Assembly: GCF_001590905.1 (NCBI RefSeq)
Contig: NZ_BCTT01000013.1
Span: 1-64,000, forward strand
Source: Serratia grimesii NBRC 13537
GTDB taxonomy: Bacteria > Pseudomonadota > Gammaproteobacteria > Enterobacterales > Enterobacteriaceae
Reading direction: 5' to 3'
Length of the DNA stretch: 64,000 nt
Notes under the pieces: model-generated
What the model saw: the letters and a program-made list of their open reading frames with translations, nothing else
What the model was told of the DNA's origin: nothing
Databases searched by the model: none
Made by a program: the position numbers and the translations under genes
In this document: one piece after another, positions 2,158 to 61,407 of the stretch
How the letters are laid out: each line of letters begins with the position of its first letter
Position numbering within the stretch: position 1 is the first letter of the stretch

Positions 2158-2160
2158 GAC

Positions 2161-3789: not shown

Positions 3790-3797
3790 GGGAATGT

Positions 3798-5006: not shown

Positions 5007-5043
5007 CGGTTCTCCCTTTCGTATCATTAACAATAACCCGTAT

Positions 5044-5062
5044 AATAATGATTATCATTTGT
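5044..5062. promoter_or_regulatory. Fur box in the entC-fepB divergent promoter
   Basis: The core AATGATTATCATT (5047-5059) matches the Fur consensus exactly, and the 19-mer matches at 15 positions by eye. It lies between the divergent entC and fepB genes. Further AT-rich Fur-like trimers occur nearer fepB (about 5123-5142 and 5165-5183), so several Fur dimers may bind. Iron repression of both transcripts is inferred from this. Confidence 0.85.
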
Positions 5063-5204
5063 ATTGAATCGCGTTAAATTACCCTCGTGAATATGCTATG
5101 TCAATAAATGTAAACAGTTCTTCCAATCATAATCATGATATAAAACCAGCAGCTTTAATTATATAAATGATAAGTATTACTATTTAACTTCTAAGGAATT
5201 CTTT

Positions 5205-7419: not shown

Positions 7420-7508
7420 GTGCTTTCTCACCACAACTAAAGAAAAGGGGCAGCGTCTGTGCTGCAATAGCGAAGGGACTCATGGTACCATAGATGAAAA
7501 CAATCAAT

Positions 7509-7527
7509 AATGATAATAAATATCATT
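7509..7527. promoter_or_regulatory. Fur box in the entS-fepD divergent promoter
   Basis: A perfect inverted repeat, AATGATA (7509-7515) and TATCATT (7521-7527), in an AT-rich stretch that also reads AATAATGATAATAAATATC. This is a typical overlapping Fur site between entS and fepD, about 25 nt before the fepD ATG. Confidence 0.82.
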
Positions 7528-7553
7528 TATATTCAATTAAATAATGGATTGTT

Positions 7554-9652: not shown

Positions 9653-10461
9653 ATGCTGACCCCTTACAGACCGCGCCATTGCGCGCTGAACATCTGACAC
9701 TCGGCTATGACAAAAAAATCGTCGCAAGCGACCTTTCCGTCTCAATACCGCACGGTGAACTGACGGTAATTATCGGGCCAAATGCCTGTGGCAAATCTAC
9801 CTTGTTACGTACCCTCAGCCGTCTGATCCAACCCCAGGCAGGTGCCGTATGGCTAAACGGCAAACACATCAGCGAATATGCAACCAAAGAGGTGGCACGC
9901 CAGCTTGGGCTGCTGCCACAAAGCTCAACCGCGCCAGGCGACATTACTGTGTTTGATTTGGTGGCCCGTGGCCGCTATCCGCATCAGCGTCTGTTCAGTC
10001 GCTGGCGTGAGGAAGATCAACAGGCAGTAGAACAAGCAATGCGTTCTACCGGCGTTTTTGAGCTGTCCGAACAGCCGGTCGATACGCTCTCTGGCGGGCA
10101 ACGCCAACGCGTGTGGATTGCTATGGTATTAGCACAGCAGACACCACTGCTGCTGCTGGATGAACCGACCACCTGGCTGGACATTACCCATCAGATAGAC
10201 CTGCTGGAGCTAATGCGTCAACTAAACCGTGAAAACGGCCATACATTGGTGGTGGTGCTGCACGATCTCAACCATGCGTGTCGTTATGCCACACATCTGA
10301 TCGCCATGCGCGACGGCAAAGTTGTTGCCGAAGGCGCACCTAAGGATATTGTGACGCCAGAACTGATCGAAGCAGTGTATGGTCTGCGCTGCATGATCAT
10401 TGACGATCCGGTTTCACACACGCCGTTGGTGGTACCTCTGGGTAAGCAACAGACAGTGTAA
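9649..10461 (+). CDS. fepC: Ferric-enterobactin ABC transporter ATPase FepC
   Basis: A 270-residue ABC ATPase powering FepDG. Walker A is GPNACGKST at 43-51, the signature LSGGQRQR starts at 147, Walker B is LLLLDEP at 167-173, and the H-loop is VLHDLNH. It is the last gene of fepDGC. The E. coli chain-length gene fepE, which follows fepC there, is absent; entF converges directly. Confidence 0.95.
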   Translation: MNADPLQTAPLRAEHLTLGYDKKIVASDLSVSIPHGELTVIIGPNACGKSTLLRTLSRLIQPQAGAVWLNGKHISEYATKEVARQLGLLPQSSTAPGDITVFDLVARGRYPHQRLFSRWREEDQQAVEQAMRSTGVFELSEQPVDTLSGGQRQRVWIAMVLAQQTPLLLLDEPTTWLDITHQIDLLELMRQLNRENGHTLVVVLHDLNHACRYATHLIAMRDGKVVAEGAPKDIVTPELIEAVYGLRCMIIDDPVSHTPLVVPLGKQQTV

Positions 10462-10489
10462 GGGCCCAGTAGCTGGACCCTTATTAATC

Positions 10490-10509
10490 GGGGCGAATGT
10501 ATTCGCCCC
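10490..10509. terminator. Hairpin between converging fepC and entF
   Basis: GGGGCGAA (10490-10497), a four-base loop and TTCGCCCC (10502-10509). A second small inverted repeat, AGGGCCCAG...CTGGACCCT, precedes it at 10461-10481. Placement between converging operons suggests bidirectional termination; neither side has a strong T-run. Confidence 0.65.
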
Positions 10510-10526
10510 CTCCCCGTCACTGGGTA

Positions 10527-13500
10527 TTACAAAGCGCGTAGTATGCGGTTCAGCAACGGCCCCAGCACTTTGAACGACGCCGGTGAAACGATATCTACGT
10601 GCGCGCAATCCAGTTCATGCACCTGCAAGGCATCCACGTATTGCGACCAGGTCTGCTGCACATCCATCCCTTCCTGTAAGGTCTGACGCGCAACAAACAA
10701 CGTCGCCTGCCCTTTGAAGTTCGCCGTATTGGTCGCTGAAAGCAAGCGGACTGAATCGGCATAGTTGGCTTCGATATTATCAAACATCGCCACACGGGTT
10801 TCGCCCAATGCAGTATCCAACGCATCCTCAGACACTGCCAGGAACTGCTGACGTTCGCGCTGAACTTCTTTTAGCACGTTGTCATCGAGCATCACATCCC
10901 AGTTCTGGGTTTCCGGCGGGTAAGTATCCAGCAACCCAAGGAAGGCCACTTCTTCACCCCGTGCCTGCAATCTGGCTGCGATACCCTGCGCCAAAGTGCC
11001 ACCCAGTGAATAACCGATAAAGTGATAGGGACCCTTCGGCTGCACCTGCAATACCTTCTCCAGATGCGCGTCGCAGACCTGATCCATATGCTCACTGAGC
11101 GCCAGCGGGCCATCAGGACGTGGCGATTGGATCCCCACCAACGACCAATGCTGATCGATATAGCGCGGCAATACACTGAACTGCCAGGAGAATCCAGAAG
11201 CAGGATGCAGACAGAACAACGTCGGACCGTCGGTGGTACGCAGTGGCAATATGCTGTCAAAACCCGTCTGGTCCGCTTCTTCCTGCGTGCGCTCTTGCGC
11301 CAACAGTTGCGCCAATTGTTCTACACGGGAAGCAACCATCACCTGCCCGACAGACACCGCCTTGCCCAGATCACGACGCAGTTCCGCCGCCAGACGCATC
11401 GCCAACAACGAGTGCCCGCCAAGCGCAAAGAAATCATCGTCGGCAAATACAGTTTCACGCTGTAGCAAACGGGCGAACACGGCGGCGATTGCCGTTTCCA
11501 GCCCCGCTTCAGGTTCACGCCCTGCGGCTCTGACACCGCTTTGTGGTTGCGGTAATGCTTTACGATCCAGCTTGCCATTGGCGCTCAGCGGTAGAGACTC
11601 CATCTCAACTAACGCTACTGGCACCATATGTGGCGGCAGACGATCGACCAGCGCAGCACGCAACGCGTCCAGATCAAGACGCACGCCAGGCTGCGCCACC
11701 AGATACCCCACCAGTTGGCGGGCATCTCCACCGCCAGGATCTGTTGGCGTATTATTCAGTACCAGCGCATGCGTAACCGCCTGCTTGATACCCGGTAACG
11801 ACAGCAGCGCATGATCGATTTCACTCAATTCGATGCGTTGACCACGAATTTTTAGCTGATCGTCACTACGGCCAAGGTATTCCACCTCGCCTCCTGGCAG
11901 CCAACGAGCAACGTCACCCGTGCGGTACATGCGACCACCGTCGCCGTCAGGATCTGCCACAAAGCGGCTGGCCGTCAGTTCCGGCCGCCCCAAATAACCC
12001 TGCGCCAGCTGTACGCCCGTAAGATACAAATCGCCAGCAACACCGGGCGGCACCGGACGCAGACGTGCGTCGAGGATGCGCAACCCGGTATTCCACACTG
12101 GCAAACCGATCGGCACGTTAGCCCCCTTGACAGCGGCCAAGGCCTCGCCCCAGGCAGGATGCCAACTGACATCAACAGCGGCTTCGGTCGGACCATACAG
12201 ATTGTGCAACGGCACACCTGTGCGACTTTGCCACAAGCGACACAGCTCGGCAGGCAGTGCTTCACCACTACAGAATACCTGTCGTAATGGTGCGCAGCAG
12301 GCCACTGCTTGTCGGCTGTCCAACGCCCCCACAAAGGCCGCCAGCATCGAAGGCACAAAGTGCATGGTGGTAACTCTGTACCGGTCAATCAATTGCAGCA
12401 GTTGTTCCGGATCACGATGCGCTTCCGGCGGCGCCATAACCAATTGCGCCCCCACCATCAGCGGCCAGAAAAACTCCCACACCGAGACATCAAAGCTGCA
12501 AGGGGTTTTCTGCAACACCACATCGCCTGCCGCCATCGGATACTGGTGCTGCATCCACAGCAAGCGGTTGACGATCGCCTGGTGGCCAACCAGCACACCT
12601 TTGGGCCGCCCAGTCGAACCAGAGGTAAAAATAATGTAGGCCGGATGATGCGGCGTTGGCCCGTGGAGCACGACGTCTGCCGTCAGCGGTGCGTCATACA
12701 GGAAAATATCGCCCTTTCCGGCAAAGCGTGCTTGCTGACCAGGCTCGGTGATAATCAGGCGAGGTGCCGCATCCTCCAGCATCATGCTGAGGCGTTCGTC
12801 AGGGTAACCGGTGTCCAGCGGTAAATAAGCCGCTCCGGCCTCAACAATGGCCATTAATGCCAACGACAGGAAAACTGAACGCGGCAACGCGACGGCGACG
12901 ATATCACCAGGCTGTACGCCCTGCGCTGTCAATTGGCGCGCCAACGCCATCACCTGCTCACGTGTCTCCCGGTAGCTGAATTGATATTGCGCATCAGCCA
13001 GTGCCGGGGCATTCGGGGTTTTCTGCGCTTGCTCTGCTAGTAGGCCCGTCAGCGTTTGCGGCGCCACCGGATGCGCAGTGTCGTTAACTCTGGTCAGCAG
13101 TTTATGATCTTGCTCGGTAAGCAAATCAGCTTCGCTGATCGGCATCTGCGGCTGAGCGGCAAACTGACGCAACAATAGCGGCAAACGCTGTAAATGTGCA
13201 GCCAACTCATCACGCTGATAGCGCTCAGCATTGGCCAGCAGATCAACCTTCAGCGTACCGGATTCATCCAGGTACAGTGCGATTTCCAGATCCCGGACCG
13301 GCCCTGAAGCCAATTCATGGGTAATACCTTCAATACCGCCGAAGTCCAACTGGAAGTCGAACATTTTAAAGTTGAACACCGTGCCATACAGCGGCTGAGC
13401 ATCGCCAATCCGCCCCAGATCACGTTGTACCTGTTCCGCTTCATAGCGCTGATGGCGACGGACGATTTTCAGCTCGCGACCAATATTGCCGGCAACGTCG

Positions 13501-14492
13501 CTCAAGGTCGCCTGCGGATCGAGGTGCATTTCGATCGGCAAAACGTTAATCACCGGCCCATTAGCACACAACGCGGCCGAACCGGTACGGCGCATAAAGA
13601 TAAAACCTGCGCTGAAACTGGCGTGACCACTCAAGCGGGACACCCATAATGCCACCAGTGCCAACGCCATATCTGCCACGCTGAATTGCTGCTGACCGGC
13701 ATTGACCAGTCGGTTAAAATCCTGCTGGTCACACAGTTGCGATAACCGATGGATACGGGTGGTCGGCGTCTGCCCAGCCAATGGCTGAGGGCAAAGGGTA
13801 GCCGGTGTCGGCAACTGTTGGGCCTTATTCAGCCAAAACGCGGCGTCGCGTTGGCACGTGGTCGACTGTGCATAACGCTGATACTCCTCGACCACCTCAC
13901 TGAATGCGGTGAACGGCGTCGGATCCGGCAGTTCATTACGTAATATTCGGGTGTAAATATGGGCAATTCTGCGGGCAATAGCTGTGAAACTAAAGCCATC
14001 AACCAGAATATGGTGATAACGCTGATACCAGAACCAGCGTCGCTCCGACAGGCGGATCAAGATATGCCGATACAGCGCATTGCCGCTGCCGATACGCAAA
14101 TCGCCGGACATATCCAATTGCATGACAGCACGTGCCGCCGCAGCAGCATCGGGGGAATCACGCAAATCAATCAACTCAACCGGCAGGATCGCGAGTTGCG
14201 GGTCAAGCCACTGCACCGGTACCCCATCACGCTCTTCAAAGCGGAACTGCAAGGTATCCACTTCGGATAGGCCCTGCGCAATCGCCTGCATCAAACGATC
14301 CTGATCCAACGCGCCATTCAGTTCAATGTAGTGGGAGACCGCATAAGCATTCGCGTGCGGTGAAATTTGATCGGCAACCCAAATTCCGGGTTGCGCAGCG
14401 ACCAACGGCAGCTCAGTGGCAAGTTGCTGTTCGGCCGATAATAAAGTGCTGTCTGACAAGGTACTGACTCCTGTTTTCGGTATTGGCGCCAT
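10527..14492 (-). CDS. entF: Enterobactin synthase NRPS component EntF
   Basis: A 1321-residue nonribosomal peptide synthetase joining dihydroxybenzoate to L-serine and cyclising the trimer. Domains in order: condensation (HHILVDG near 160-166), adenylation (FTSGSTGRPKG near 623-633; pocket FDVSVW and MHFVPS fit serine activation as in E. coli EntF), peptidyl carrier (LGGHSLL, Ser about 1028), thioesterase (GYSLGG, Ser about 1162, His in CAHVD). E. coli EntF has 1293 residues. I choose ATG 14492, which shares a base with the mbtH stop (TGATG); a GTG lies one codon earlier. It is the last gene of fes-mbtH-entF. The single complete module argues for an enterobactin-type product. Confidence 0.95.
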   Translation of the reverse strand: MAPIPKTGVSTLSDSTLLSAEQQLATELPLVAAQPGIWVADQISPHANAYAVSHYIELNGALDQDRLMQAIAQGLSEVDTLQFRFEERDGVPVQWLDPQLAILPVELIDLRDSPDAAAAARAVMQLDMSGDLRIGSGNALYRHILIRLSERRWFWYQRYHHILVDGFSFTAIARRIAHIYTRILRNELPDPTPFTAFSEVVEEYQRYAQSTTCQRDAAFWLNKAQQLPTPATLCPQPLAGQTPTTRIHRLSQLCDQQDFNRLVNAGQQQFSVADMALALVALWVSRLSGHASFSAGFIFMRRTGSAALCANGPVINVLPIEMHLDPQATLSDVAGNIGRELKIVRRHQRYEAEQVQRDLGRIGDAQPLYGTVFNFKMFDFQLDFGGIEGITHELASGPVRDLEIALYLDESGTLKVDLLANAERYQRDELAAHLQRLPLLLRQFAAQPQMPISEADLLTEQDHKLLTRVNDTAHPVAPQTLTGLLAEQAQKTPNAPALADAQYQFSYRETREQVMALARQLTAQGVQPGDIVAVALPRSVFLSLALMAIVEAGAAYLPLDTGYPDERLSMMLEDAAPRLIITEPGQQARFAGKGDIFLYDAPLTADVVLHGPTPHHPAYIIFTSGSTGRPKGVLVGHQAIVNRLLWMQHQYPMAAGDVVLQKTPCSFDVSVWEFFWPLMVGAQLVMAPPEAHRDPEQLLQLIDRYRVTTMHFVPSMLAAFVGALDSRQAVACCAPLRQVFCSGEALPAELCRLWQSRTGVPLHNLYGPTEAAVDVSWHPAWGEALAAVKGANVPIGLPVWNTGLRILDARLRPVPPGVAGDLYLTGVQLAQGYLGRPELTASRFVADPDGDGGRMYRTGDVARWLPGGEVEYLGRSDDQLKIRGQRIELSEIDHALLSLPGIKQAVTHALVLNNTPTDPGGGDARQLVGYLVAQPGVRLDLDALRAALVDRLPPHMVPVALVEMESLPLSANGKLDRKALPQPQSGVRAAGREPEAGLETAIAAVFARLLQRETVFADDDFFALGGHSLLAMRLAAELRRDLGKAVSVGQVMVASRVEQLAQLLAQERTQEEADQTGFDSILPLRTTDGPTLFCLHPASGFSWQFSVLPRYIDQHWSLVGIQSPRPDGPLALSEHMDQVCDAHLEKVLQVQPKGPYHFIGYSLGGTLAQGIAARLQARGEEVAFLGLLDTYPPETQNWDVMLDDNVLKEVQRERQQFLAVSEDALDTALGETRVAMFDNIEANYADSVRLLSATNTANFKGQATLFVARQTLQEGMDVQQTWSQYVDALQVHELDCAHVDIVSPASFKVLGPLLNRILRAL

Positions 14493-14698
14493 CACGCCTT
14501 ACGCAGTGATGCGGGCCGCATATCCTGCCAATGCTTTTCCAGCCAGTTCACACACTGTGATCGTGCTGCCGGGCCGAATACCGGCGTCCACCCCGCCGGT
14601 ACTGCGCTAAAATCCGGCCACAGGCTGTATTGTTGTTCGTCATTCTGCACAATCAGGCAGATTTGTTGCTCGTCATCGAACGGGTTCAGAGTTTCCAT
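14492..14698 (-). CDS. ybdZ: MbtH-like NRPS chaperone (YbdZ)
   Basis: A 68-residue MbtH-family protein that binds NRPS adenylation domains and aids their folding or activity, here surely EntF. The family signature is visible: NPFDD at the N-terminus, then YSLWPDF, PAGW and the conserved tryptophan-rich W...HWQDMRPASL tail. AAGGAGTC precedes the ATG. Its first 26 nt overlap the end of fes and its stop overlaps the entF start. Confidence 0.95.
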   Translation of the reverse strand: METLNPFDDEQQICLIVQNDEQQYSLWPDFSAVPAGWTPVFGPAARSQCVNWLEKHWQDMRPASLRKA

Positions 14699-16043
14699 CG
14701 CGGACTCCTTGGACAGAAAAGGTTAGCTTGGCCGAAGACGCAGGATACTGATCTGCCCACAATGCCTGTAGGCCATCGATCAAACCGCCACGCCAACAGA
14801 GATAGTCATGCCCGCCGGCAACCGTTCGGTATTGCACCCGGTGACCGGCATCGCGCAACAAATCCGCCATTCGATCATTCACACGATGTGCTACTTTTTC
14901 GTGCACCCCGGCTTCCATAAATACTTTCAATGAGCCCTTGCCAACGCCCTGCTCGACTTGACGCAGTAGCCAACCCGCATCGGCCGGTATCTCTTCGCGC
15001 TGGTACATGTCACGTCGCGGCCACCAGAAGGAGCCTGACTGACTGATCACTCCACCGAAGCACTGTGGCCAGTGCAACCCGGCATACAGTGAAGACAAAC
15101 CACCAAAACTTTGACCGCACACCAGGGTGCGAGCAGGATCACGGCTGTGCGGCGCCCATTCGGCAACCTGCGGCAGCAATTCTTCTTGCACCGCTAGCCA
15201 GAAATCTTCATTACAGGCTAATTCCTGCGTACGGTGCTTGAGGTCGATGATGTCGATCAGCAAATAAACCGCTTCCGGCAGTTTGCCCTCGCGGGTTAAC
15301 TGCATCAGCGGATCCCAGACGGGCATGTTGTTCGACCAGAACTGGCCATCCAGTAACACCGCCAATGGACGCTGCCCCGGGTTACTGTCACCCGTGGTAT
15401 ACACCCACACATTACGGGTATTCCCCAACCGTTCACTGTGCCAACTGTGGCGCTGTAATCTCGCCGGAGGGGCTGGCGTGCAACGTCCGCTGGCGACCGC
15501 GTAGCGATCAAAATCCTGCCAGGCGGGTTGCGCCGGCGCTTCCGGCATATGCAAACCTGACAGCACATTGCCACTGACACCTGCCCAAGAACGGTGAGGA
15601 TTAAGCAGGTCTTGAGTGGCGCCGGCAAACACCTGATGCCACCAGTGACGAATCGAATGCATATTCGCATGCGTATCGTCACCACTCTGTTCCAGAGGAC
15701 GATCATCCATGCAGGGGATAAAACAGTAGCTGCCACGCCAGTCGGCGCTGAGTTCAGTTTGCCAGTACCAAACGTCGGTTCCTTCCAATCGTTGCAAGCT
15801 CTGTGGCGGCGATGATTGATGGTGGTCGGTCAGGCAATTGATGTGGATCCAGACGCGTTGATAGGCTGAAGTGAGCTCACATCCCTGAGGATCACGCCAT
15901 AAAAATGTGACCTTCCCTCGCCCATTCCCTTGCAGCTCCACCAGCGGCGTGCCGCGTTTGGCAATATTCAGCCACCATCCATGGCGCCCGGCGTGCTTGC
16001 TCGATAATAATCTGCTGCTTTCTGACTCGGATTTTGTTTTCAA
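14673..16043 (-). CDS. fes: Enterochelin esterase Fes
   Basis: A cytoplasmic alpha/beta hydrolase cleaving the trilactone of imported ferric enterobactin to release iron. The 456-residue frame contains GQSFGG (nucleophile elbow), SQSGSFWW, and GGHDYLCWRGGL with the catalytic histidine; the N-terminal half aligns with the E. coli Fes IPT-like domain (RDPQG, GTDVWYW, WRGSYCFIP). The only start before the conserved region is a TTG at 16043, with no good ribosome site, so the exact start is uncertain. It is first in fes-mbtH-entF, divergent from fepA. Confidence 0.92.
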   Translation of the reverse strand: MKTKSESESSRLLSSKHAGRHGWWLNIAKRGTPLVELQGNGRGKVTFLWRDPQGCELTSAYQRVWIHINCLTDHHQSSPPQSLQRLEGTDVWYWQTELSADWRGSYCFIPCMDDRPLEQSGDDTHANMHSIRHWWHQVFAGATQDLLNPHRSWAGVSGNVLSGLHMPEAPAQPAWQDFDRYAVASGRCTPAPPARLQRHSWHSERLGNTRNVWVYTTGDSNPGQRPLAVLLDGQFWSNNMPVWDPLMQLTREGKLPEAVYLLIDIIDLKHRTQELACNEDFWLAVQEELLPQVAEWAPHSRDPARTLVCGQSFGGLSSLYAGLHWPQCFGGVISQSGSFWWPRRDMYQREEIPADAGWLLRQVEQGVGKGSLKVFMEAGVHEKVAHRVNDRMADLLRDAGHRVQYRTVAGGHDYLCWRGGLIDGLQALWADQYPASSAKLTFSVQGVRDGNSEPVR

Positions 16044-16131
16044 AACGCCTATTCACTATTTAGCTGGCAGCTTCAGGAAAGCCGGTAAATTCGCGGCGCG
16101 AGGCGCTGCCCAAGAAAACGGTAAACCGAAT

Positions 16132-16150
16132 ACTATTGATAATTATTTGC
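16132..16150. promoter_or_regulatory. Fur-like box in the fes-fepA divergent promoter
   Basis: ATTGATAATTATT (16135-16147) matches 11 of 13 positions of the Fur core AATGATAATCATT. It lies about 90 nt before fes and about 215 nt before fepA, the position where the E. coli fepA-fes control region has Fur sites. It is weaker than the other boxes in this window. Confidence 0.6.
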
Positions 16151-16364
16151 GTTTGCAATAGTGTGTGTAGACTCGTAAACAGGGCAGGTATTCTTCAACA
16201 GGGATGGATACCGGATTTTAGCGCTAAATCCGATGCTGTTGCCGTTGCGTCTCGGCCAGTTGGATTTTTATTTTCGAAAACACAAAAACTACAACCGCCC
16301 TTCTCTCAGCCGGTGGCCTACTGCGTCGGTGCCCCGGGAAAGGCAGCAAGGTAGGAACACTCAC

Positions 16365-18644
16365 ATGAACCGCAAATTATCTCGTTACTCCTTAGCCACA
16401 CTCATCGGGTTAGGGTTAGGCGCGTCCGCCTTTGCGCACGCCGCACAGCAAACTGATACCACCGCAGAAACAGACACTGTCGCCAAAAATAAAAAAGAAG
16501 CCGCCGAAGACACCATTGTTGTCACCGCCGCCAAGCAGAATCTGCAGGCTCCGGGGGTTTCCACTATCACTGCCGAAGAAATCAAAAAGCGCCCACCCGC
16601 ACGCGATATCAGTGAACTGATTCGTACCATGCCTGGCGTTAACCTAACCGGTAACTCTACCAGCGGTCAGCGTGGCAACAACCGTCAGTTAGATATTCGC
16701 GGCATGGGCCCGGAAAACACCCTGATCCTGATCGACGGCAAACCGGCTACCAGCCGTAATTCGGTACGTCAAGGCTGGCGTGGTGAACGTGATACCCGCG
16801 GCGATACCGGCTGGGTACCACCAGAGATGATTGAACGCATTGAAGTGTTGCGCGGCCCAGCTGCGGCACGCTACGGCAACGGTGCCGCCGGCGGCGTGGT
16901 CAACATCATCACCAAGAAAAACACCAAAGAGCTGCACGGATCTCTGAATGCGTTTTTCAACGTACCGCAGCATAAGCAAGAAGGTTCTACCAAGCGCACC
17001 GACTTTAGCCTGTCTGGTCCGTTGACCGACGAACTCAGCTTCCGTTTGTTCGGTGGTTACAGCAAAACTCAGGCCGATGCGTGGGATATTAACGAATCAC
17101 ATAAATCTTACCGTGCAGGTGCCTATGCCAACAGCGTGCCAGCCGGACGAGAAGGCGTAGAAGACAAAAATATCGATGCTATGTTGCATTGGGATTTTGC
17201 ACATTTGCAGTCACTTGAGTTTGAGTATGCCTACGGTCGCCAGGGCAACCTGTATGCCGGTGATACTCAAAACACCAACTCCAATGCGCTGGTACAGAGC
17301 AACTACGGCAAAGAGACTAACCGCATTTACCGCGAAACCTTCGGCCTCAACCATCGTGGAGCCTGGGATAACGGTGTCAGCACCAACAACTATATTCAGT
17401 TCGAACGCACACGTAATACCCGTTTGAATGAAGGTCTGGCCGGCGGTACTGAAGGCATCTTCGATACTAAAAATAACGGCTTCGGCACCACCAAACTGGA
17501 CGATTTCCTGGCTCACAGCGAAGTCAGCGTACCGTTTGAACTGGGCGTGACGCAAACTGCGACTGTGGGGACCGAGTGGAACCAACAGAAAATGAAGGAT
17601 GGTACCTCCACCAGCCAAACGCTGATGGGCGGTACCATTCCTGGCCAAGAAACCGGTACACGTAGCCCTTATGCATCTGCGCATATCTTCTCGCTGTTTG
17701 CCGAAGACAACATGGAGCTGACTGATACCACCATGCTGACGCCAGGTCTGCGTTACGATCTGCACTCTGAGTCCGGCAACAACTGGAGTCCGTCGCTGAA
17801 TCTGTCACAGGAACTGGGCGATTTCTTCACCCTGAAGATGGGTATCGCCCGCGCCTATAAAGCGCCAAACCTGTACCAGACCAACCAAAACTATTTGCTC
17901 TATAGCAAAGGCCAAGGTTGTGCAGCCAGCGATGTCAAAAATGGCTGTTACCTGCTCGGTAACGACGATCTGAAGGCGGAAACCAGCGTCAACAAAGAAG
18001 TTGGCCTAGAGTTCCATAACGACGGCTGGTTGGCTGGTGTGACTTACTTCCGTAACGATTACCACAACAAAATTGAAGCAGGTAATAGTCGCATCGGTAC
18101 CAGCAGCACCGGTACAGCTATTTACCAATGGGAAAACGTACCTAAAGCGGTAGTGCAGGGCTTAGAAGGCACGTTGAACGTACCGGTCAGCGAGAGCGTG
18201 TCCTGGACCAACAACGCCACCTACATGATTGAAAACAAGAATAAGAGCACCGGTGATTACCTGTCGATTATTCCTGAATTCACCATCAACTCAACCCTGA
18301 GCTGGCAAGCAACCCAAGAGCTGTCGATGCAATCGACCCTGACTTGGTACGGCCGCCAGAAACCGAAGAAGTACAACTATCAGGGTAAACCGGTTAGCGG
18401 TACCGAAACCAAGGAAGTCAGCCCGTACGCTGTGGTTGGTGCCAGCGCAACCTATGATGTGACCAAGAACGTCAGCGTAACTGCCGGTATCGACAACCTG
18501 TTCGATAAACGCCAATTCCGTGAAGGTAACTCGCAGAACGTCGGCGACCCAATAACCGGTACCATTAACATTGCCGGTGCAGGGGCTGCGACCTACAACG
18601 AGCCAGGCCGGACTTACTATATGAGCGTGAATACCCATTTCTAA
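16365..18644 (+). CDS. fepA: TonB-dependent ferric-enterobactin receptor FepA
   Basis: An outer-membrane receptor, 759 residues with the start at ATG 16365 (TAGGAA upstream). An upstream in-frame ATG at 16233 would add 44 residues before the signal peptide and is rejected. Sec signal MNRKLSRYSL...AFAHA, TonB box DTIVVTA, then a plug domain with LDIRGMGPENTLILIDG and the arginine-rich loop GWRGERDTRGD characteristic of FepA. The barrel ends in aromatic SVNTHF. E. coli FepA is 746 residues as precursor. It is divergent from fes and followed by a terminator. Confidence 0.94.
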   Translation: MNRKLSRYSLATLIGLGLGASAFAHAAQQTDTTAETDTVAKNKKEAAEDTIVVTAAKQNLQAPGVSTITAEEIKKRPPARDISELIRTMPGVNLTGNSTSGQRGNNRQLDIRGMGPENTLILIDGKPATSRNSVRQGWRGERDTRGDTGWVPPEMIERIEVLRGPAAARYGNGAAGGVVNIITKKNTKELHGSLNAFFNVPQHKQEGSTKRTDFSLSGPLTDELSFRLFGGYSKTQADAWDINESHKSYRAGAYANSVPAGREGVEDKNIDAMLHWDFAHLQSLEFEYAYGRQGNLYAGDTQNTNSNALVQSNYGKETNRIYRETFGLNHRGAWDNGVSTNNYIQFERTRNTRLNEGLAGGTEGIFDTKNNGFGTTKLDDFLAHSEVSVPFELGVTQTATVGTEWNQQKMKDGTSTSQTLMGGTIPGQETGTRSPYASAHIFSLFAEDNMELTDTTMLTPGLRYDLHSESGNNWSPSLNLSQELGDFFTLKMGIARAYKAPNLYQTNQNYLLYSKGQGCAASDVKNGCYLLGNDDLKAETSVNKEVGLEFHNDGWLAGVTYFRNDYHNKIEAGNSRIGTSSTGTAIYQWENVPKAVVQGLEGTLNVPVSESVSWTNNATYMIENKNKSTGDYLSIIPEFTINSTLSWQATQELSMQSTLTWYGRQKPKKYNYQGKPVSGTETKEVSPYAVVGASATYDVTKNVSVTAGIDNLFDKRQFREGNSQNVGDPITGTINIAGAGAATYNEPGRTYYMSVNTHF

Positions 18645-53488: not shown

Positions 53489-54963
<1,475 letters not shown>

Positions 54964-54981: not shown

Positions 54982-57243
54982 TTAGAATCGCACCTCCCCG
55001 CCGAAGATATAAGTTCGTCCACGGGCAGTGTTGGCAGCAGTGGCGTCATCACCTTGAATAGGCAACATATTCAGCTTGTTAAGCGCCTCTGAATAACTCT
55101 TGTTCATCAGATTCTGCACACTAAATTTTAGCAGCACGTTACGGTTAATTTGATAGGTGCTATACAGATCGATAATGGTCGGGATGTTCGGCATATCCTG
55201 CTTCACTATCTCACCGGTGGTTTCACTTTGTTCATAATCCGGAGACAAACGGCGGGCCTTTCCTGTGTATTTCACAATACTGCCGACAGTCAATGACTCA
55301 TCCAGGAAACGCACCCCGGTATTCAGTGTAAAGTACATATCCGGAAGTTCATTGATATCACCCGCGCCAAAATAGGTGCTGGCAATTGAAGTCGGCTGCT
55401 CGGTATGCTGCTTACTGAATGACATGCGAGCGAAGGCGCGACCTGCGTCATAATTGGCTTCCAGCTCTACGCCATGCGCACGTACAGGAGTCAACGAGTT
55501 GACGTAGATGTACATATTGTCCGCATAGTCTTCACTTTCATCGGCCCAGTTATTTTCAAGGTTTTCGCGATAGCTACATTTGCGTCCATTACGGCACACC
55601 ATGTATGACTCGCTGAAAATATAGTTGTTAACCTTACTGGTATAAGCCACCACTTTCAGTTGAAGCGAGTCCTCTTTAACCAATAAATCATGACCATTGG
55701 CGTTAAATCCCGCCTGCCAAGTTTCTGCTCGTTCCCCCTTCAAAAACGGGTTCATCGACGCTCCACCAGAGTTTGAATAGAACACTTCCTGAATATTAGG
55801 CGCGCGCATGGATTTGCTGTAGCTGACAAAGGGTTGCAGCCATGGCGTTACCTGCGCAGAAAGCATCACCGATGGGTTAAAACCTTGTTCTTTTAAATTA
55901 ATATTAGCGGCACCCTGAGGGAAACATTGTACCCGGTAATCACAAGCAGGTTTAAATCCTGTCAGCTTGTTGCTGCTGTAATTCAGGTTTAAATCTAATT
56001 GATAAATATCCCGATTAAGCTGTAAGCCGGTGTACAAACTGGTGATACGCTGATCACCTGACGGCGCGAAGGTGTTGTTTTCGATAGACTCCTGCGCGGT
56101 CTGCTCATCTTCGATTGCCGACTCAACATGCTTGGTGTATCTGTTGTGCATGATTTTACCGCCGTAGCTGAAAGCTACATCGGTGTTCAACAGGCTGAAG
56201 CGACTTGTATTATTGATATCCAATGCGTCGGAACGGTTTTCCGAATTGGTATTAAAGAAGGTGAATAGCGAACCACCGTTATATTCCTGATTCCCTTTAC
56301 TGGTACTGGCAGTAATATTTAAATCGACCAATTCCGAGAACGGTGCATAATGATATTTTATATAAAAATCATTACTGTGAATATCTCGACGAGAGAATCG
56401 GTTTTGATAGCTCCTGGCCGAAAGCTCAATACTATTAAATTCATCCGGCTTGATATCCAGTTTGAATAACTGCGATTTTGGATTTTGCTTCATAAACTCA
56501 TCATATCCAAAATCCTCGCTACTCACCCCGTCACCATTATTGAAGTTCGAGTAAACAGAGCTGCCGCTGATTGCCGCCATGGCACCAATGCTGCCAGTAT
56601 CGGTAAATGCTTGCCCTTTTCCCGCGACTGCAACCATACCACTACGACCAATACCATTACTGCCGACAGAAAATTTAGTCCTAATACCAAAAGGGTTGCC
56701 GGAGAAAATAACATCATCAACACCAATAGTACGAAAGTTCGCGCTGCCAGCCAGAGCATTGACCCCTGCTCCCCCACTGCTTTCACCGCGTGCCACGTCG
56801 ACCCCAACGATAAAGTTTGGATCGATCAGAACACCTGACTGGCTATTGGTTGAACCATGTGAAAGAACCCCAGAAGTGGATGTTCCGTAATAGCTTTGGG
56901 TAATACCATCTACCATAGTGTTAACCCGGCCAAACCCGCTCATTCCACGGATATTAACGCTAACCGCGCCTTGACTCGGATCGATTTGGGTATAGGTACC
57001 TGGCATACTGCGCAGAATACTGTCTACCGACTCCAGGTTCTTATTTTCACCACGGGAACTGAACGCCCCCGGTTTTTCCAACGCCTCCCTTTCACTGTTG
57101 TTACTGCTGTCTGCCGCCGAAACATTTAACGGACTGAAAACCACCTTACCGCTGCCCTCTTTTGCCTCACTCTGTGCAGCCGTCGCCCCCCCGCTCAGCG
57201 CCATTCCCGCGCCGAACAGGCTTACTAATAATTTAATTTTCAT
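54982..57243 (-). CDS. TonB-dependent outer-membrane receptor (HasR/haem-receptor-like)
   Basis: A 753-residue receptor from ATG 57243: signal peptide MKIKLLVSLFGAGMALSGGATA, TonB-box-like KVVFSPLNV, plug domain (SVDSILRSMPGTYTQIDPSQG; VNIRGMSGFGRVNTMVDGI; GSANFRTIGVDDVIF, the last typical of HasR/haemophore-type receptors), 22-stranded barrel with SMRAPNIQEVF and NPFLKGERAETW in place of FRAP/NPNL, ending ...IFGGEVRF. No histidine lies between those two motifs, unlike classical haem receptors. Two short cysteine pairs (CDYRVQC, CRNGRKC) probably close extracellular loops. An in-frame start at 57306 precedes the signal and is rejected. Ligand uncertain: haem/haemoprotein first, another siderophore or peptide second. 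Confidence 0.8.
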   Translation of the reverse strand: MKIKLLVSLFGAGMALSGGATAAQSEAKEGSGKVVFSPLNVSAADSSNNSEREALEKPGAFSSRGENKNLESVDSILRSMPGTYTQIDPSQGAVSVNIRGMSGFGRVNTMVDGITQSYYGTSTSGVLSHGSTNSQSGVLIDPNFIVGVDVARGESSGGAGVNALAGSANFRTIGVDDVIFSGNPFGIRTKFSVGSNGIGRSGMVAVAGKGQAFTDTGSIGAMAAISGSSVYSNFNNGDGVSSEDFGYDEFMKQNPKSQLFKLDIKPDEFNSIELSARSYQNRFSRRDIHSNDFYIKYHYAPFSELVDLNITASTSKGNQEYNGGSLFTFFNTNSENRSDALDINNTSRFSLLNTDVAFSYGGKIMHNRYTKHVESAIEDEQTAQESIENNTFAPSGDQRITSLYTGLQLNRDIYQLDLNLNYSSNKLTGFKPACDYRVQCFPQGAANINLKEQGFNPSVMLSAQVTPWLQPFVSYSKSMRAPNIQEVFYSNSGGASMNPFLKGERAETWQAGFNANGHDLLVKEDSLQLKVVAYTSKVNNYIFSESYMVCRNGRKCSYRENLENNWADESEDYADNMYIYVNSLTPVRAHGVELEANYDAGRAFARMSFSKQHTEQPTSIASTYFGAGDINELPDMYFTLNTGVRFLDESLTVGSIVKYTGKARRLSPDYEQSETTGEIVKQDMPNIPTIIDLYSTYQINRNVLLKFSVQNLMNKSYSEALNKLNMLPIQGDDATAANTARGRTYIFGGEVRF

Positions 57244-57363
57244 ATATCCCCAGAAATTGCCAAAAGGTTTGATGGCCGACAATGCCCAGCAAAAATCCCC
57301 GCCCATAAGACGGTAAATATTGTTATTGTTTTAATACGCCGCAGTTTCCTGCGGCGTTAAATA

Positions 57364-59496
57364 TTATTTCTTTGCCTGTTGATCCATCGCCAGAATAAAG
57401 GCGTACTCCAGAGCGCTATTTTCCAGCCGAGCCAGGCGACCCGATTTGCCGCCGTGACCTGCAGTCATGTCGGTGGACAGCAGTAGCAACGAATCCCCTT
57501 GCTTAAACTGCCGCAACTTCGCTACCCACTTGGCGGGTTCCCAATACTGCACCTGCGAATCATACAACCCGCTGGTCACCAACAAATTCGGGTAGTGTTG
57601 CTTGCGCACATTGTCATACGGGCTGTAAGACTTCATCAGCGCATAGGCCTGCGGCTCATTCGGATTGCCCCACTCTTCATACTCACCAGTGGTTAATGGA
57701 ATACTGTCGTCCAACATGGTGGTCACCACATCAACAAAGGGCACCTGCGCCACCACCGCGTTATACAGTTGCGGAGCCTGGTTGATCACTGCCCCCATCA
57801 GTAATCCACCAGCGCTGCCTCCCATGGCGTAAATACGGCCTGGTTGACCATAGCCATCCTTGATCAAGGCTTGGGTGGCGTCGATAAAGTCGCTGAAAGT
57901 ATTCGGCTTGTGGATCAGTTTTCCCTGTTGGTACCAGTTCTGTCCTAACTCTCCGCCGCCGCGTACGTGAATCAGCGCATAGACGAAACCACGATCCAGT
58001 AGGCTAATACGATTGGCGCTAAAGGCCGGATCCATGCTCATGCCATAAGCACCATAGCCGTACACTAACAGCGGACTGTGACCCGGTTTGAACATCGTCT
58101 TGTTGTAAACCAGCGAGACCGGTACCTTCACACCATCTCGCGCACTGATCCACACCCGTTCACTGTGATACAAGCTCGGGTCAACGCCTTTCACTTCCTG
58201 CTGCTTCAGCAAGGTTCGGCTGCCCTTATTCAAATCCCAGTCGTAGGTACTGGTTGGGGTCGTCATCGCCGAATAGCCGTAACGCAAGCGATCACTGTCC
58301 GGATCGGGGTTATAACCCAACCAGGCCATGTAGCTGGCATCGTCAAACGGAATACTGCGTTGGGTCTTACCGTCCCAACTTATCTGCCGCAGTTGCACCA
58401 ACCCATCGCCACGTTCTTTCACCACCAACCAATCACGAAACAGGGTAAAGCCCTCAACTTCACGCTTTTCCTGTGGAGCAATTAACGTCTGCCACGGTTG
58501 CTGCGCAGACGCTGTGTGATACAGACCGAAGTGCGGGCTTTGATGGTTGGAACGCAGATAGAATTCACCACGATAATGATCGAGATAATATTCACGTCCG
58601 CTGTGCCGGGCTGCAAATAACTGCGGTGCACTTTGCGGGCGATTAGCGTCGATCAGACGCACTTCAGAGGTGGTATTGCCGCTGATAGTGATAATGACGT
58701 AATCACGGGAAGCCGAGCTACCGAGACTCAGGTAGAAAGCAGCGTCGTTCTCCTGATACACCCGTTGGTCTTCCGTTACCGGCGTGCCAAACGTATGACG
58801 GTAAACCTGATATGGCAGCAAGGTTTGTGGGTGATTCCGCACATAGAACAAAGTTTTGCCATCGTTAGCCCACACCATATTGCCGGAGGTGTTCTCAATG
58901 ACTTCTGGCGCCCAACGTTTGTCAGCAATATCCTGTAGGGAAATCCGATACTGGCGGCGGCCCTGTACATCTTCAGACACCGCCATACGCCGGTTGTCCT
59001 GGCTGATGTCCATTCCCCCGACGCGGTAATAATCATGACCTGCCGCGCGTTGATTGGCATCCAGCAACGTTTGCCACGGCGCATCGGCAGTCAAAGCCTG
59101 CCGTTGATACAGCGCGAAATTTTTGCCGGCGGCGTAGCTTTCCTGATAACGATAGCCGTTCAATTGATAAGGCACCGAGCGGTCTTCCGGGCTAATGCGG
59201 CTCAGCATTTCCTGATACAGCTTATCGCGCAGAGCTTTATAGGGCTGCATCATCTGTTCGGTATAACGATTTTCCGCAGTCAGATAATCCAGCACCTTTT
59301 TGTTCTTTCGGCTGTCGTCACGCAACCAGTAATAGTCATCTGTACGGGTTTCACCTTGCGCAGTCAGTACTTTGGGTACTTTTTCTGCCTGCGGGGGTTG
59401 CGGCTGCGCAGCTACCGCAGAATTTAAAAATCCGAACGAAAACAGTAAAGCGGCGCCCAGGCGACACTTCTTATTCGATGACAGTGGGTGATTCAT
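57364..59496 (-). CDS. Exported oligopeptidase B (S9A prolyl-oligopeptidase family)
   Basis: A 710-residue serine peptidase that is oligopeptidase B by sequence: triad S561 (GGSAGG), D646 (GLYDSQVQYW), H681 (AGHGGKSGR), beta-propeller in the N-terminal half, and the acidic pair in PLTTGEYEEWGNP that directs cleavage after Arg/Lys. Unlike E. coli OpdB (686, cytosolic), it begins with a clear Sec signal (basic MNHPLSSNKKCR, then hydrophobic to AVAAQ near 30). So it should act in the periplasm or outside, on short basic peptides. It lies 55 nt after the TonB-like gene and 120 nt before the receptor on the same strand; a hairpin (57336-57357) without a T-run separates it from the receptor. Confidence 0.88.
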   Translation of the reverse strand: MNHPLSSNKKCRLGAALLFSFGFLNSAVAAQPQPPQAEKVPKVLTAQGETRTDDYYWLRDDSRKNKKVLDYLTAENRYTEQMMQPYKALRDKLYQEMLSRISPEDRSVPYQLNGYRYQESYAAGKNFALYQRQALTADAPWQTLLDANQRAAGHDYYRVGGMDISQDNRRMAVSEDVQGRRQYRISLQDIADKRWAPEVIENTSGNMVWANDGKTLFYVRNHPQTLLPYQVYRHTFGTPVTEDQRVYQENDAAFYLSLGSSASRDYVIITISGNTTSEVRLIDANRPQSAPQLFAARHSGREYYLDHYRGEFYLRSNHQSPHFGLYHTASAQQPWQTLIAPQEKREVEGFTLFRDWLVVKERGDGLVQLRQISWDGKTQRSIPFDDASYMAWLGYNPDPDSDRLRYGYSAMTTPTSTYDWDLNKGSRTLLKQQEVKGVDPSLYHSERVWISARDGVKVPVSLVYNKTMFKPGHSPLLVYGYGAYGMSMDPAFSANRISLLDRGFVYALIHVRGGGELGQNWYQQGKLIHKPNTFSDFIDATQALIKDGYGQPGRIYAMGGSAGGLLMGAVINQAPQLYNAVVAQVPFVDVVTTMLDDSIPLTTGEYEEWGNPNEPQAYALMKSYSPYDNVRKQHYPNLLVTSGLYDSQVQYWEPAKWVAKLRQFKQGDSLLLLSTDMTAGHGGKSGRLARLENSALEYAFILAMDQQAKK

Positions 59497-59551
59497 AATC
59501 CCTCACGAAGTTTGACCTGTAGGCATCCCGTTAGGAGGACGTCTGTAGGTG

Positions 59552-60352
59552 TTATTTGCCGGCATTTAACGCCGCCAGATTAAAATCAATTGGCATCGTC
59601 ACGTTGACGGCGCCATTTCGCAACATGTCAGACGGGGGTAATGGCAGCGGCTGCGCCCGCTCTACCACGGCTAGCGCCTCACGATCGAGTGATGCAGTGC
59701 CCGAGCGAACCCGGAGTGTCACCCCCGACACCCGCCCCTGAGCATCAACACGGAACGTCACCTGCGGCATACCGGTACGTCGGCGACTGCGGGCCTCTGG
59801 CGGATAGCGTTTAATGTTGTTCAGATGACCTTTCACCAGGCTTTCCCATGACAGTTTGGCTTGAACGCTGCTGTTGGAGTCGCTGTTGATCGGTGCGGCG
59901 GTCTGGCGGGCAACGTTCTGCGCTTTTGGCGCAGCGGCACTGGAAGCAGCAGCATGGCGCATCTCTTTAGCCTGCTCTTCCGGTTTTGGCTGAGCTTTCT
60001 GTGGTGGCCGGAGTTCAGTGCGTTTTTTTTCTGCCACGGAAATTTTGGTCTTTTCAGCACGCGCCAATTTAGGCAAGTCGGGTTGCTCCAACTGCTCGGC
60101 CGGTTGCGCCGCAGAGGATTCCGCCTGTTGCACACCCAGCGGTAGCGGTTTTGGGCTTTCCGGTGCCTCTACTTGTTCCGCCCAGCTCATCATCACCGCC
60201 GGTGGGGGTAATTGCATCATCGGTAACGGCTGGGACGGCCAGTAAAACATCAATACCAGCGCGACGTGTACTGCTATCGCACACAAGAAACCGCGCGCCC
60301 AACGCGGCTGCGGCATATCGACGACAGGGTAAGATAAAGACTGACTTAACAT
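59552..60352 (-). CDS. TonB-family energy transducer (TonB/HasB-like)
   Basis: A 266-residue TonB-type protein from ATG 60352: short cytoplasmic N-terminus, one membrane helix (about 17-35, FLCAIAVHVALVLMFYW), a Pro/Glu/Lys/Ala-rich periplasmic linker (about 40-170), and a C-terminal TonB domain (IKRYPPEARSRRRTGMPQVTFRVDAQGRVSGVTL). An in-frame start at 60412 overlaps the Fur box, so 60352 is preferred; ATG 60316 is possible. No exbB/exbD adjoin. Its position with a receptor recalls HasB, which energises HasR in S. marcescens. Confidence 0.87.
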   Translation of the reverse strand: MLSQSLSYPVVDMPQPRWARGFLCAIAVHVALVLMFYWPSQPLPMMQLPPPAVMMSWAEQVEAPESPKPLPLGVQQAESSAAQPAEQLEQPDLPKLARAEKTKISVAEKKRTELRPPQKAQPKPEEQAKEMRHAAASSAAAPKAQNVARQTAAPINSDSNSSVQAKLSWESLVKGHLNNIKRYPPEARSRRRTGMPQVTFRVDAQGRVSGVTLRVRSGTASLDREALAVVERAQPLPLPPSDMLRNGAVNVTMPIDFNLAALNAGK

Positions 60353-60397
60353 AAGGACATTAGAATACTTAATCGCGAATGATTGCAGATCACATTT

Positions 60398-60416
60398 GCT
60401 AATGATAATCATTTGT
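60398..60416. promoter_or_regulatory. Fur box upstream of the TonB-like gene
   Basis: AATGATAATCATT (60401-60413) is a perfect Fur core; the 19-mer matches 15 positions. It is 46 nt before the TonB-like start, in the gap after chaN, indicating an internal iron-regulated promoter. Confidence 0.85.
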
Positions 60417-60458
60417 AACTGTTATTAACAGTTCTTTTCGCTGTGTTTACTCTATGAA

Positions 60459-60493
60459 TTTCAAGTTGCAGCAAACAGCGCTGCAACTTGAAA
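60459..60493. repeat. Miniature inverted repeat related to the dispersed element (copy D)
   Basis: TTTCAAGTTGCAG (60459-60471) and CTGCAACTTGAAA (60481-60493) form a perfect 13-bp stem with a 9-base loop, 20 nt downstream of the chaN stop. The arm sequence equals the terminal repeat of copies A-C, so this looks like the two ends of the element joined without its middle. It could also act as a terminator for chaN, though no T-run follows. Confidence 0.7.
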
Positions 60494-60513
60494 GGCAACC
60501 CGTCTTGGCCTAA

Positions 60514-61353
60514 TTACTTCACCGCCGGGGTAACCCACAGATAATCCGCCACCTGTTTATCGACCTGTACACCAGGTTCTGCCAGCATCAATACTGTTGG
60601 CAATGCTGTTGGTTGTAGATCTTGCACGTGAAGTGGTACCCCTACCGATTTAGACGCATGATAACCACCAGCAATAAGCAAAGCAGGCGTCGGCGCAGCC
60701 AGCAAACGTTCGGCCATACGTCGGTCACGCTGCTGCTGAATAGCCAGCATGGCATGCAGCTGTTGCGGTTCGATATTCCCGCCATGTGAGGTGCGAATAG
60801 TTTCCTCCAGCGCTTTTTGCACCACCGGCCGTACCGACAGCGTTCCCTGCGGGAAACTCGGCTGCTGATAAAACGCCATGATTTCACTGCGATCCAGGTT
60901 GGCTGACCACAGTGGATAAGGCGCCCGCATTGCCGCCATGATCACGTCACCGTACAGCGACCACTTCCAGCCTGGCTGCCAATCAATCAACTCTGCCACA
61001 CGACTGTCACGCACCGTCGGATTTGACTGTAGCCAGTGTTTCACCTGATCCACTTTGGCCTGCTGATTCGGATTTATCATCTCCATTAGCACACTGCCTT
61101 GTGACCGCCGCAGAGGTAATTGCTGCACCAACCACAGTTCAATCTGATGGTGATACGGGTTGTCATGTTTTTCCCCAACAACCACGCGTTGCTCAACAGA
61201 CAGTCGGGCCAATAGCTGATCAGGCGTCAGGCTTTCCCCACTACGCAAATCGGTAATTTTCCCCAGTTCGATAAGGGTATTTTTTGGCGGTGAAACGGGG
61301 GTTTGACTGCAGGCACCGAGCGCCAGTGCGGCCAGTAAAATCAAAAATCTCAT
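60514..61353 (-). CDS. ChaN-family haem-binding lipoprotein
   Basis: A 279-residue lipoprotein (signal MRFLILLAALALGAC, lipid Cys about 15) of the ChaN family (haem-binding uptake, Tiki superfamily). Characteristic motifs: VVVGEKHDNPYHHQIEL near 59-75, VLMEMINPNQQ, and C-terminal LLIAGGYHASKSVGVPLH. In Campylobacter jejuni, ChaN is an iron-regulated haem-binding lipoprotein that works with the receptor ChaR. Here it heads a minus-strand row of four genes, 36 nt downstream of a strong Fur box. Confidence 0.85.
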   Translation of the reverse strand: MRFLILLAALALGACSQTPVSPPKNTLIELGKITDLRSGESLTPDQLLARLSVEQRVVVGEKHDNPYHHQIELWLVQQLPLRRSQGSVLMEMINPNQQAKVDQVKHWLQSNPTVRDSRVAELIDWQPGWKWSLYGDVIMAAMRAPYPLWSANLDRSEIMAFYQQPSFPQGTLSVRPVVQKALEETIRTSHGGNIEPQQLHAMLAIQQQRDRRMAERLLAAPTPALLIAGGYHASKSVGVPLHVQDLQPTALPTVLMLAEPGVQVDKQVADYLWVTPAVK

Positions 61354-61388
61354 GATGCTGCCCTGTAATAAAAAGTGGCGACATTATA

Positions 61389-61407
61389 GATAATAATTAT
61401 CATTTGC
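61389..61407. promoter_or_regulatory. Fur box upstream of chaN-like gene
   Basis: GATAATAATTATCATTTGC matches 16 of 19 consensus positions, the best 19-mer in the window, located 36 nt before the ChaN-like start. mmuP begins 140 nt away on the other strand and may or may not be affected. Confidence 0.87.

Follow-up and report, generated by a model that had tools for sequence, protein, structure and literature searches.

We describe a four-gene locus in a 64,000-nucleotide stretch of the Serratia grimesii NBRC 13537 genome (positions 1 to 64,000 of contig NZ_BCTT01000013.1), which we call the window at its full length. The source genome comprises 5.07 Mb in 40 contigs. The locus occupies 54982..61407 and consists of four head-to-tail genes on the minus strand: N, encoding a ChaN/CjrA-type lipoprotein; B, a HasB/CjrB-type TonB protein; P, an exported-looking oligopeptidase B; and R, a CjrC-type TonB-dependent receptor. 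It is flanked by mmuP-mmuM on one side and by yaiI-hemF-amiA on the other. A first-pass annotation of this DNA had placed four minus-strand genes in a row here; all are present, and their families are confirmed by Pfam. It had also stated that no description of this exact combination was known. That statement falls for three of the four genes, which correspond to cjrABC, with a receptor 67% to 68% identical; only P is new. Judged by gene content and neighborhood, Cjr-type systems on chromosomes regularly include the peptidase, and the E. coli plasmid form seems to derive from them by reduction; these two points are the new content of our analysis.

Gene N (60514..61353, minus strand) encodes 279 residues. 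It combines the ChaN domain (PF04187, E 1.1e-35, 124 bits against a cut-off of 27.7) with a lipobox, LGAC, as in ChaN haem-binding lipoproteins, and its only PDB match is 2g5g, a "putative lipoprotein." By eye, the lipobox cysteine is present in N at 36 of 37 loci; at the other, the plasmid locus L059, the chosen start cuts it off. Gene B (59552..60316, minus strand, 254 residues) carries a TonB_C domain (E 2.1e-13) and matches TIGR01352; its only PDB match at E 0.001 is HasB (2m2k, E 3e-25), over the C-terminal part. The start of B is most likely 60316 rather than 60412, since the upper start overlaps the second Fur box and the matching frame is closed after 6 to 15 codons in 6 of 12 Serratia loci, the window included. 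Gene R (54982..57243, minus strand, 753 residues) contains Plug (1e-9) and TonB_dep_Rec (1.4e-30) domains, and is further identified by NCBIfam, PDB, and plasmid matches. Its start is most likely the ATG at 57243, not the longer open reading frame start at 57306, because the longest open reading frame of the Hafnia and Cedecea relatives opens at the matching ATG.

Gene P (57364..59496, minus strand, 710 residues) has the architecture of the S9A peptidases: a beta-propeller (Peptidase_S9_N, 2.8e-96) and an S9 domain (Peptidase_S9, 1.1e-65), a catalytic triad (Ser561-Asp646-His681), and an acidic S1 pocket. Its best PDB matches are bacterial oligopeptidase B entries, at E about 1e-274. Oligopeptidase B cleaves after Arg or Lys. 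All 34 cluster enzymes compared keep the triad, and a dead peptidase was rejected on this ground. Glu605 and Glu607, which we take to be the acidic residues of the S1 pocket, are likewise retained: the former in all 34, the latter in 28, with Asp in the other 6. By these residues, P looks like an active enzyme of the trypsin-like type, and for the most part it has remained in the cluster. It falls below the cut-off of the NCBIfam equivalog PRK10115 (950.8 against 1313 bits), and a second oligopeptidase B in the source genome, without an N-terminal extension, is 59% identical to it. A signal-like N-terminus was recognized by eye on P at the 34 loci listed; at L013 the chosen start cuts it, and the longer form has it. 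Such an N-terminus would place P in the periplasm. The cysteine count is uninformative, as the Serratia cytosolic enzyme likewise has none.

The first-pass view that oligopeptidase B is normally cytosolic proved overstated: several other gammaproteobacteria have forms whose N-termini resemble those of exported proteins or lipoproteins. By eye, without a scan, no obvious TonB receptor lies in their 1.5-kb flanks. In a quick, midpoint-rooted tree (76 rows in, 69 kept), the 17 cluster enzymes entered, out of 35, lie on one side of a branch with a Shimodaira–Hasegawa-like approximate likelihood ratio test (SH-aLRT) support of 100. On the other side are 52 enzymes, including cytosolic-looking enterobacterial ones and exported-looking ones of other genera. 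This single branch is consistent with one acquisition. L063 was left out of the input by hand, and a filter on short or broken alignments removed 7 rows, including the cytosolic copy of the window genome; the Pasteurellaceae-like enzyme (L045) has a very long branch and its placement is unsure.

The four genes are conserved as a module. Loci were located with exact peptide patterns of the window receptor, a scan that may miss divergent receptors, with or without P. It yielded 32 loci with R: 11 in Serratia, 13 in Photorhabdus, 5 in Enterobacteriaceae named Cedecea or Enterobacter, 1 in Hafnia, and 2 in Iodobacter-like genomes. All 32 keep the order N-B-P-R on a single strand. The first-pass annotation had named a lack of conserved gene order in other genomes as grounds for refutation; by this result it is not refuted. 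All 11 Serratia loci have the mmuP flank and the remaining 21 lack it, so the module stands in different places. Within Serratia, R and the exported P (83% to 100% identity) share the same 21 of 30 genomes. A chance neighborhood was rejected on the order in 32 of 32 loci and on this co-occurrence.

Nine of the 30 genomes lack R and the exported P, and the five full-size ones (L137 to L141) were read, with B looked for at this site. In all five, N stands alone beside yaiI, without B, P, and R; in G537, the stretch read lacks N. B-P-R thus behaves as a unit, its genes being jointly absent from the site, and N can be kept alone. Across 148 genomes of the order, N (E at most 1e-15) occurs in four, the same four that hold a near-full-length match to R, and two more have partial matches to longer receptors. 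A survey of 369 genomes of the class contributed one other genome with a receptor at 1e-70. Over all loci read, P adjoins R in 35 of 38 and is missing at L044, L046, and the plasmid locus L059.

The kinship with cjrABC is seen in the receptor and in the layout. Against plasmid sequences, R matches 559 records, 514 of them from Escherichia; one Serratia record is 99.6% identical, 554 lie at 60% to 80%, and 4 lie below 60%. Among the 20 of these 559 matches that were listed, 19 are non-Serratia receptors, 67% to 68% identical over their full length. The locus has the cjrABC gene order and a CjrC-orthologous receptor, with P standing between the last two genes. In the one cjr-type plasmid region read, that of Enterobacter cloacae pM12X01451, ChaN, TonB, and receptor genes are followed by a predicted senB/TieB gene, and the region contains no P. 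A senB-like gene is found in none of 35 P-bearing loci searched, the window included. It does stand beside R in two of the three loci without P, namely L044 (same family) and the plasmid, not L046. The definition of cjrABC itself does not include senB. A megablast search against E. coli genomes gave no match, as expected at 67% protein identity. No description of oligopeptidase B with Cjr-type genes was found among the literature matches listed, in a coverage that excludes most subscription journals; two Shewanella papers and a Yersinia paper among the matches do not mention such an arrangement in the parts at hand.

On plasmids, oligopeptidase B is found in 41 records at 1e-80; among the best 30 of the 41, only two reach at least 60% identity to P, at 99.7% in a Serratia record and 60.9% in an Aeromonas record of 4.9 Mb. 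The value expected for a Cedecea-like P is about 64% to 65%. A plasmid-borne origin of the window copy was considered and rejected: the sole near-identical plasmid record, NZ_MT039221.1 (L058; R 99.6% and P 99.7% identical), is probably a mislabelled piece of chromosome. Filed as a Serratia proteamaculans plasmid, this record carries maeB, hemF, amiA, and cys genes together with the cluster.

Phylogeny bears on how the plasmid form arose. Receptor and ChaN trees were built from 23 of 37 loci. The receptor tree places plasmid CjrC as sister to the receptor of Cedecea davisae (100/99), inside a clade of Hafnia and Cedecea receptors (100/100) whose other members all have P. In approximately unbiased (AU) tests, with groups picked after the tree was seen, grouping the four P-bearing receptors without the plasmid one was rejected (p 1.4e-10), as was grouping the three Cedecea-like receptors alone (p 0.0013). 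The ChaN tree joins the plasmid copy weakly with Cedecea davisae (80/42), and firmly with Hafnia, Cedecea, and L044 (98/100). By eye, the leader of the plasmid receptor gene is similar to the gap between P and R in Cedecea. Because the plasmid receptor nests among P-bearing Hafnia/Cedecea copies, the plasmid form probably lost P; on the simplest reading it also acquired senB. No loss can be argued for L044, since the receptor tree does not resolve its position.

Two of the four genes in Serratia are preceded by Fur-type boxes. The scan used the 19-base Fur consensus, and the boxes are predicted sites matched by sequence. Fur box 1 (61389..61407, minus strand) matches at 16/19 and lies 36 to 54 bases 5' of the ATG of N; Fur box 2 (60398..60416) matches at 15/19 and lies 5' of B. 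The first-pass annotation had reported both, and they recur across loci. The whole 64-kb window holds four sites of at least 15/19, these two plus 5044 and 7506 in a siderophore cluster, against a mean of 0.1 across ten order-1 Markov sequences of 64 kb. A site of at least 14/19 lies before N in 30 of 35 loci, and of the 34 loci with a B gene, 25 have such a site before it; among 4000 random 240-base stretches of the same loci, 172 reach 14, 60 reach 15, and 25 reach 16. All 12 Serratia loci score 16 before N and 15 before B. In all 13 Photorhabdus loci the B site scores 14 to 16 and the N site 11 to 14; the 5 loci named Cedecea or Enterobacter have an N site of 15 and no B site; and Hafnia has a 16/19 site before exbB, with none before N or B. 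Upstream of P, nothing exceeds 12/19 at any of 34 P-bearing loci scanned; upstream of R, nothing exceeds 12/19 in the window or 13 in Serratia. On this distribution, Serratia and Photorhabdus would have two units under Fur control, N and B-P-R, and Cedecea and Hafnia a single one. By sequence match, the locus has the predicted upstream Fur box characteristic of a Cjr system.

Inverted repeats lie in two of the gaps between genes. An inverted repeat of two exact, facing 13-base copies (60460..60492) lies between N and B and may form a hairpin; a near half-copy of it stands at 53519-53531, close to hemF. A further inverted repeat lies between P and R, so these two genes may be expressed differently. 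Promoter and terminator scans gave no more sites than shuffled sequences did.

The siderophore cluster is a separate feature of the window. It is of the catecholate type, spans 545-18644, and adjoins two tandem tRNA genes at 48-203. Its genes encode an isochorismate synthase, an AMP ligase, an isochorismatase-carrier protein, and a one-module nonribosomal peptide synthetase (condensation, adenylation, carrier, thioesterase). They further encode a binding protein, two FecCD permeases, an ATPase, an enterochelin esterase, and a FepA-type receptor. Its Fur-box matches are those at 5044 and 7506.

The receptor gene has a history of its own. Between the window and Serratia PL17, 86% to 97% of bases are identical from N over B and P into the beginning of R; identity falls to 55% to 82% over the rest of R, and is 88% to 96% beyond it. 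Trees of N and P join the window to PL17, while that of R places it with Serratia H1w (99/97). Grouping the window R with those of six other Serratia loci to the exclusion of H1w is rejected (p 0.0045, again in an AU test with groups picked after the tree was seen). R has probably been replaced by recombination. Such replacement would be in keeping with a surface receptor under selection from bacteriocins, phages, or hosts. Compared with L019 and L012, the window's 54982-57243 looks like a recombinant allele: its start and flanks match the closest species, and most of the gene differs from it.

B is consistent with a dedicated energy supply for R. HasB is a TonB paralog dedicated to one haem receptor (PMC9008036). 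In relatives, exbB-exbD lies between N and B (two Iodobacter-like loci) or before N (Hafnia). The Iodobacter-like ExbB and the window genome's own ExbB have an apparent N-terminal extension; the source genome has one ExbB over its cut-off, of the long form. Long ExbBs are reported in Serratia, and those of Alphaproteobacteria mostly accompany hasB (PMC9008036). For colicin Z, entry is reported to depend on CjrC, CjrB, ExbB, and ExbD and not on TonB (PMC6668396). Because colicin Z enters through CjrC and CjrB without TonB, the idea of a private energizer is supported, by homology. The first-pass proposal of an uptake system with its own energizer is thereby supported, through the Fur-marked locus, the HasB type of B, and the exbBD genes in or before the clusters of relatives. 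The same annotation had denied that this was a has locus; among Pfam-assigned neighbors at the locus there is no hasA or hasDE beside the cluster, and a has haem-acquisition locus is rejected over these neighbors.

Taken together, we consider it about an even call that the locus is a Fur-repressed, self-energized outer-membrane uptake system of the CjrABC kind, in a fuller, four-gene form. Under iron limitation, two units would be transcribed: N, and B-P-R. The iron source bound by R would most likely be haem, or a protein or peptide fragment that carries it. Powered by the long-form ExbBD, the HasB-like protein B would open R in place of the housekeeping TonB. On the periplasmic side, the lipoprotein N, with its ChaN haem-binding fold, would receive or hold the ligand. 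P, as a periplasmic trypsin-like oligopeptidase, would cut Arg/Lys-containing peptides arriving with the ligand or as the ligand; trimming of imported peptides is its most likely role. The ligand freed by P would then pass to a haem-type ATP-binding cassette (ABC) transporter encoded elsewhere in the genome; the source genome has one ABC ATPase over the haem cut-off. The sequence itself establishes the gene content and order, their conservation, the Fur-box matches, the HasB type of B, the intact peptidase residues, and the kinship of R with CjrC; the iron response, the transcription units, haem as the ligand, the location of P, and its action on imported peptides are inferred. We hold a bolder extension to be possible but doubtful: that N-B-P-R is ancestral and cjrABC-senB a reduced derivative with SenB in the accessory place, the ligand being not bare haem but iron linked to a peptide, for example a haemoprotein fragment or a peptide metallophore, which R would take in intact and P would open in the periplasm.

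That the ligand is haem or haem-bearing we judge slightly more probable than the alternatives combined. The best NCBIfam model of R is the haem/haemoglobin receptor TIGR01785, and the ChaN and HasB-type partners also speak for haem. Classical haem receptors have two axial histidines, one in a plug loop and one in an extracellular loop; the plug-loop histidine is present in 23 of 23 receptors. In two Pasteurellaceae-like genomes, N-R or N-P-R is followed by a PF01497/FecCD/ATPase transporter; against the haem cut-off of 261, one ATPase passes (314.6) and the other falls just short (252.6). In one of these genomes, a TbpB/FHBP-like lipoprotein (L045 10878-12092) lies between the receptor and the haem-type ABC transporter. 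A structure model of R has a mean predicted local distance difference test (pLDDT) score of 51.9, so its fold is given no weight here; among the 50 matches to it, haem, cobalamin, and siderophore receptors are nearly tied.

Several observations weigh against the uptake model or its haem ligand. R scores 246.1 bits to TIGR01785, below the cut-off of 316.85. The extracellular-loop histidine occurs in 1 of 22 readable rows, so that the two-histidine pattern of TonB-dependent haem receptors is absent; other ligands such as Tyr are possible. By sequence, the nearest solved receptor is 9oaa, gonococcal TdfH (272.7 bits, versus 104 for HasR). For the Pasteurellaceae-like binding proteins and permeases, the top-scoring models are those for vitamin B12, none of them reaching its cut-off; the haem ATPase model, in turn, also gives hits above its cut-off in 4 of 14 control genomes. 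The ligand of those transporters is therefore not certain. N persists without B, P, and R in five Serratia genomes, and R without P at 3 of the 38 loci read.

Three other explanations compete with this model, and they divide over the role of P and the identity of the ligand. P may serve as a guard, destroying Arg/Lys-rich peptides such as bacteriocins and cationic peptides that enter the periplasm through R. CjrC, the E. coli relative of R, is the receptor for colicins Js and Z (PMC6668396); a part for oligopeptidase B in resisting some antimicrobial peptides has been suggested (PMC8533160); and the recombined R of the window, compared with PL17, shows the pattern expected of an exploited surface receptor. 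We regard this role as rather unlikely. A mere passenger role, in which P is a general peptidase that is exported and expressed with the cluster when iron is limiting but is not functionally linked to R, could draw on the exported-looking enzymes that stand elsewhere in other genera and on the N-B-R or N-R arrangements that exist without P. This is very improbable, for the 17 cluster enzymes group together, P always occupies the position between B and R in the 32 loci, and P shares its 21 of 30 genomes with R and is missing together with B and R.

The ligand may differ from haem altogether. TdfH is reported to take zinc from calprotectin, and R could similarly take metal from a non-haem host or competitor protein. 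TdfH is the best PDB sequence match of R, the second haem histidine is absent, and a TbpB/FHBP-like lipoprotein stands behind R in one relative. Against this stand the Fur-type boxes, the ChaN and HasB-type partners, and the PF01497/FecCD transporters with a haem-type ATPase beside relatives; moreover, carriers such as Photorhabdus and Iodobacter would not be expected to meet calprotectin. We consider such a ligand unlikely.

In terms of significance, the parts of the cjrABC-senB literature at hand name no proven natural ligand for CjrC. The four-gene chromosomal form in Serratia, Photorhabdus, and others adds a partner enzyme whose cleavage rule constrains that ligand. It also offers natural deletions, as five Serratia genomes lack B-P-R at the site, and hosts that are easy to work with. 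If P does work on the imports of R, uptake would be coupled to periplasmic proteolysis, and it would be clear what the plasmid form has lost.

The locus can be set beside five known systems. With oligopeptidase B, represented by the S. proteamaculans enzyme with solved structures and by PtrB, P shares the two-domain S9 fold, the triad, and the acidic residues; unlike the classical enzyme, it has a signal-like N-terminus and falls below the equivalog cut-off. The Acinetobacter baumannii hemin-utilisation genes also place a peptidase in a TonB haem cluster, with ExbB/D-type proteins, TonB, a TonB receptor, haem-binding protein A, a Zn-dependent oligopeptidase, and dipeptide ABC genes (PMC3224125); that peptidase is named a zinc enzyme and so is of another type than P, the two being likened by description only. 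The HasB/HasR pair of S. marcescens resembles the locus in the C-terminal part of B, whereas R matches HasR only weakly (104 bits) and is closer to TdfH; the neighbors here are hemF/yaiI/amiA and mmuP/mmuM, not hasA/hasDE. TdfH of Neisseria gonorrhoeae (9oaa, 272.7 bits) is the nearest solved receptor by sequence, although R has 753 residues against a chain of 901, and the two are 24% identical over an alignment made with a poor model. The plasmid-borne cjrABC-senB of Shigella and of enteroinvasive and extraintestinal E. coli has ChaN, TonB-like, and receptor genes in the same order and on the same strand; it is a proposed iron-uptake system with a functional Fur box, in which uptake is still to be confirmed (PMC7412671). 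Unlike the cjrABC-senB plasmid region read, the locus here lies on a chromosomal contig, without senB, and carries an oligopeptidase B between B and R; in Serratia and Photorhabdus, B further differs from its cjr counterpart in having a Fur box of its own.

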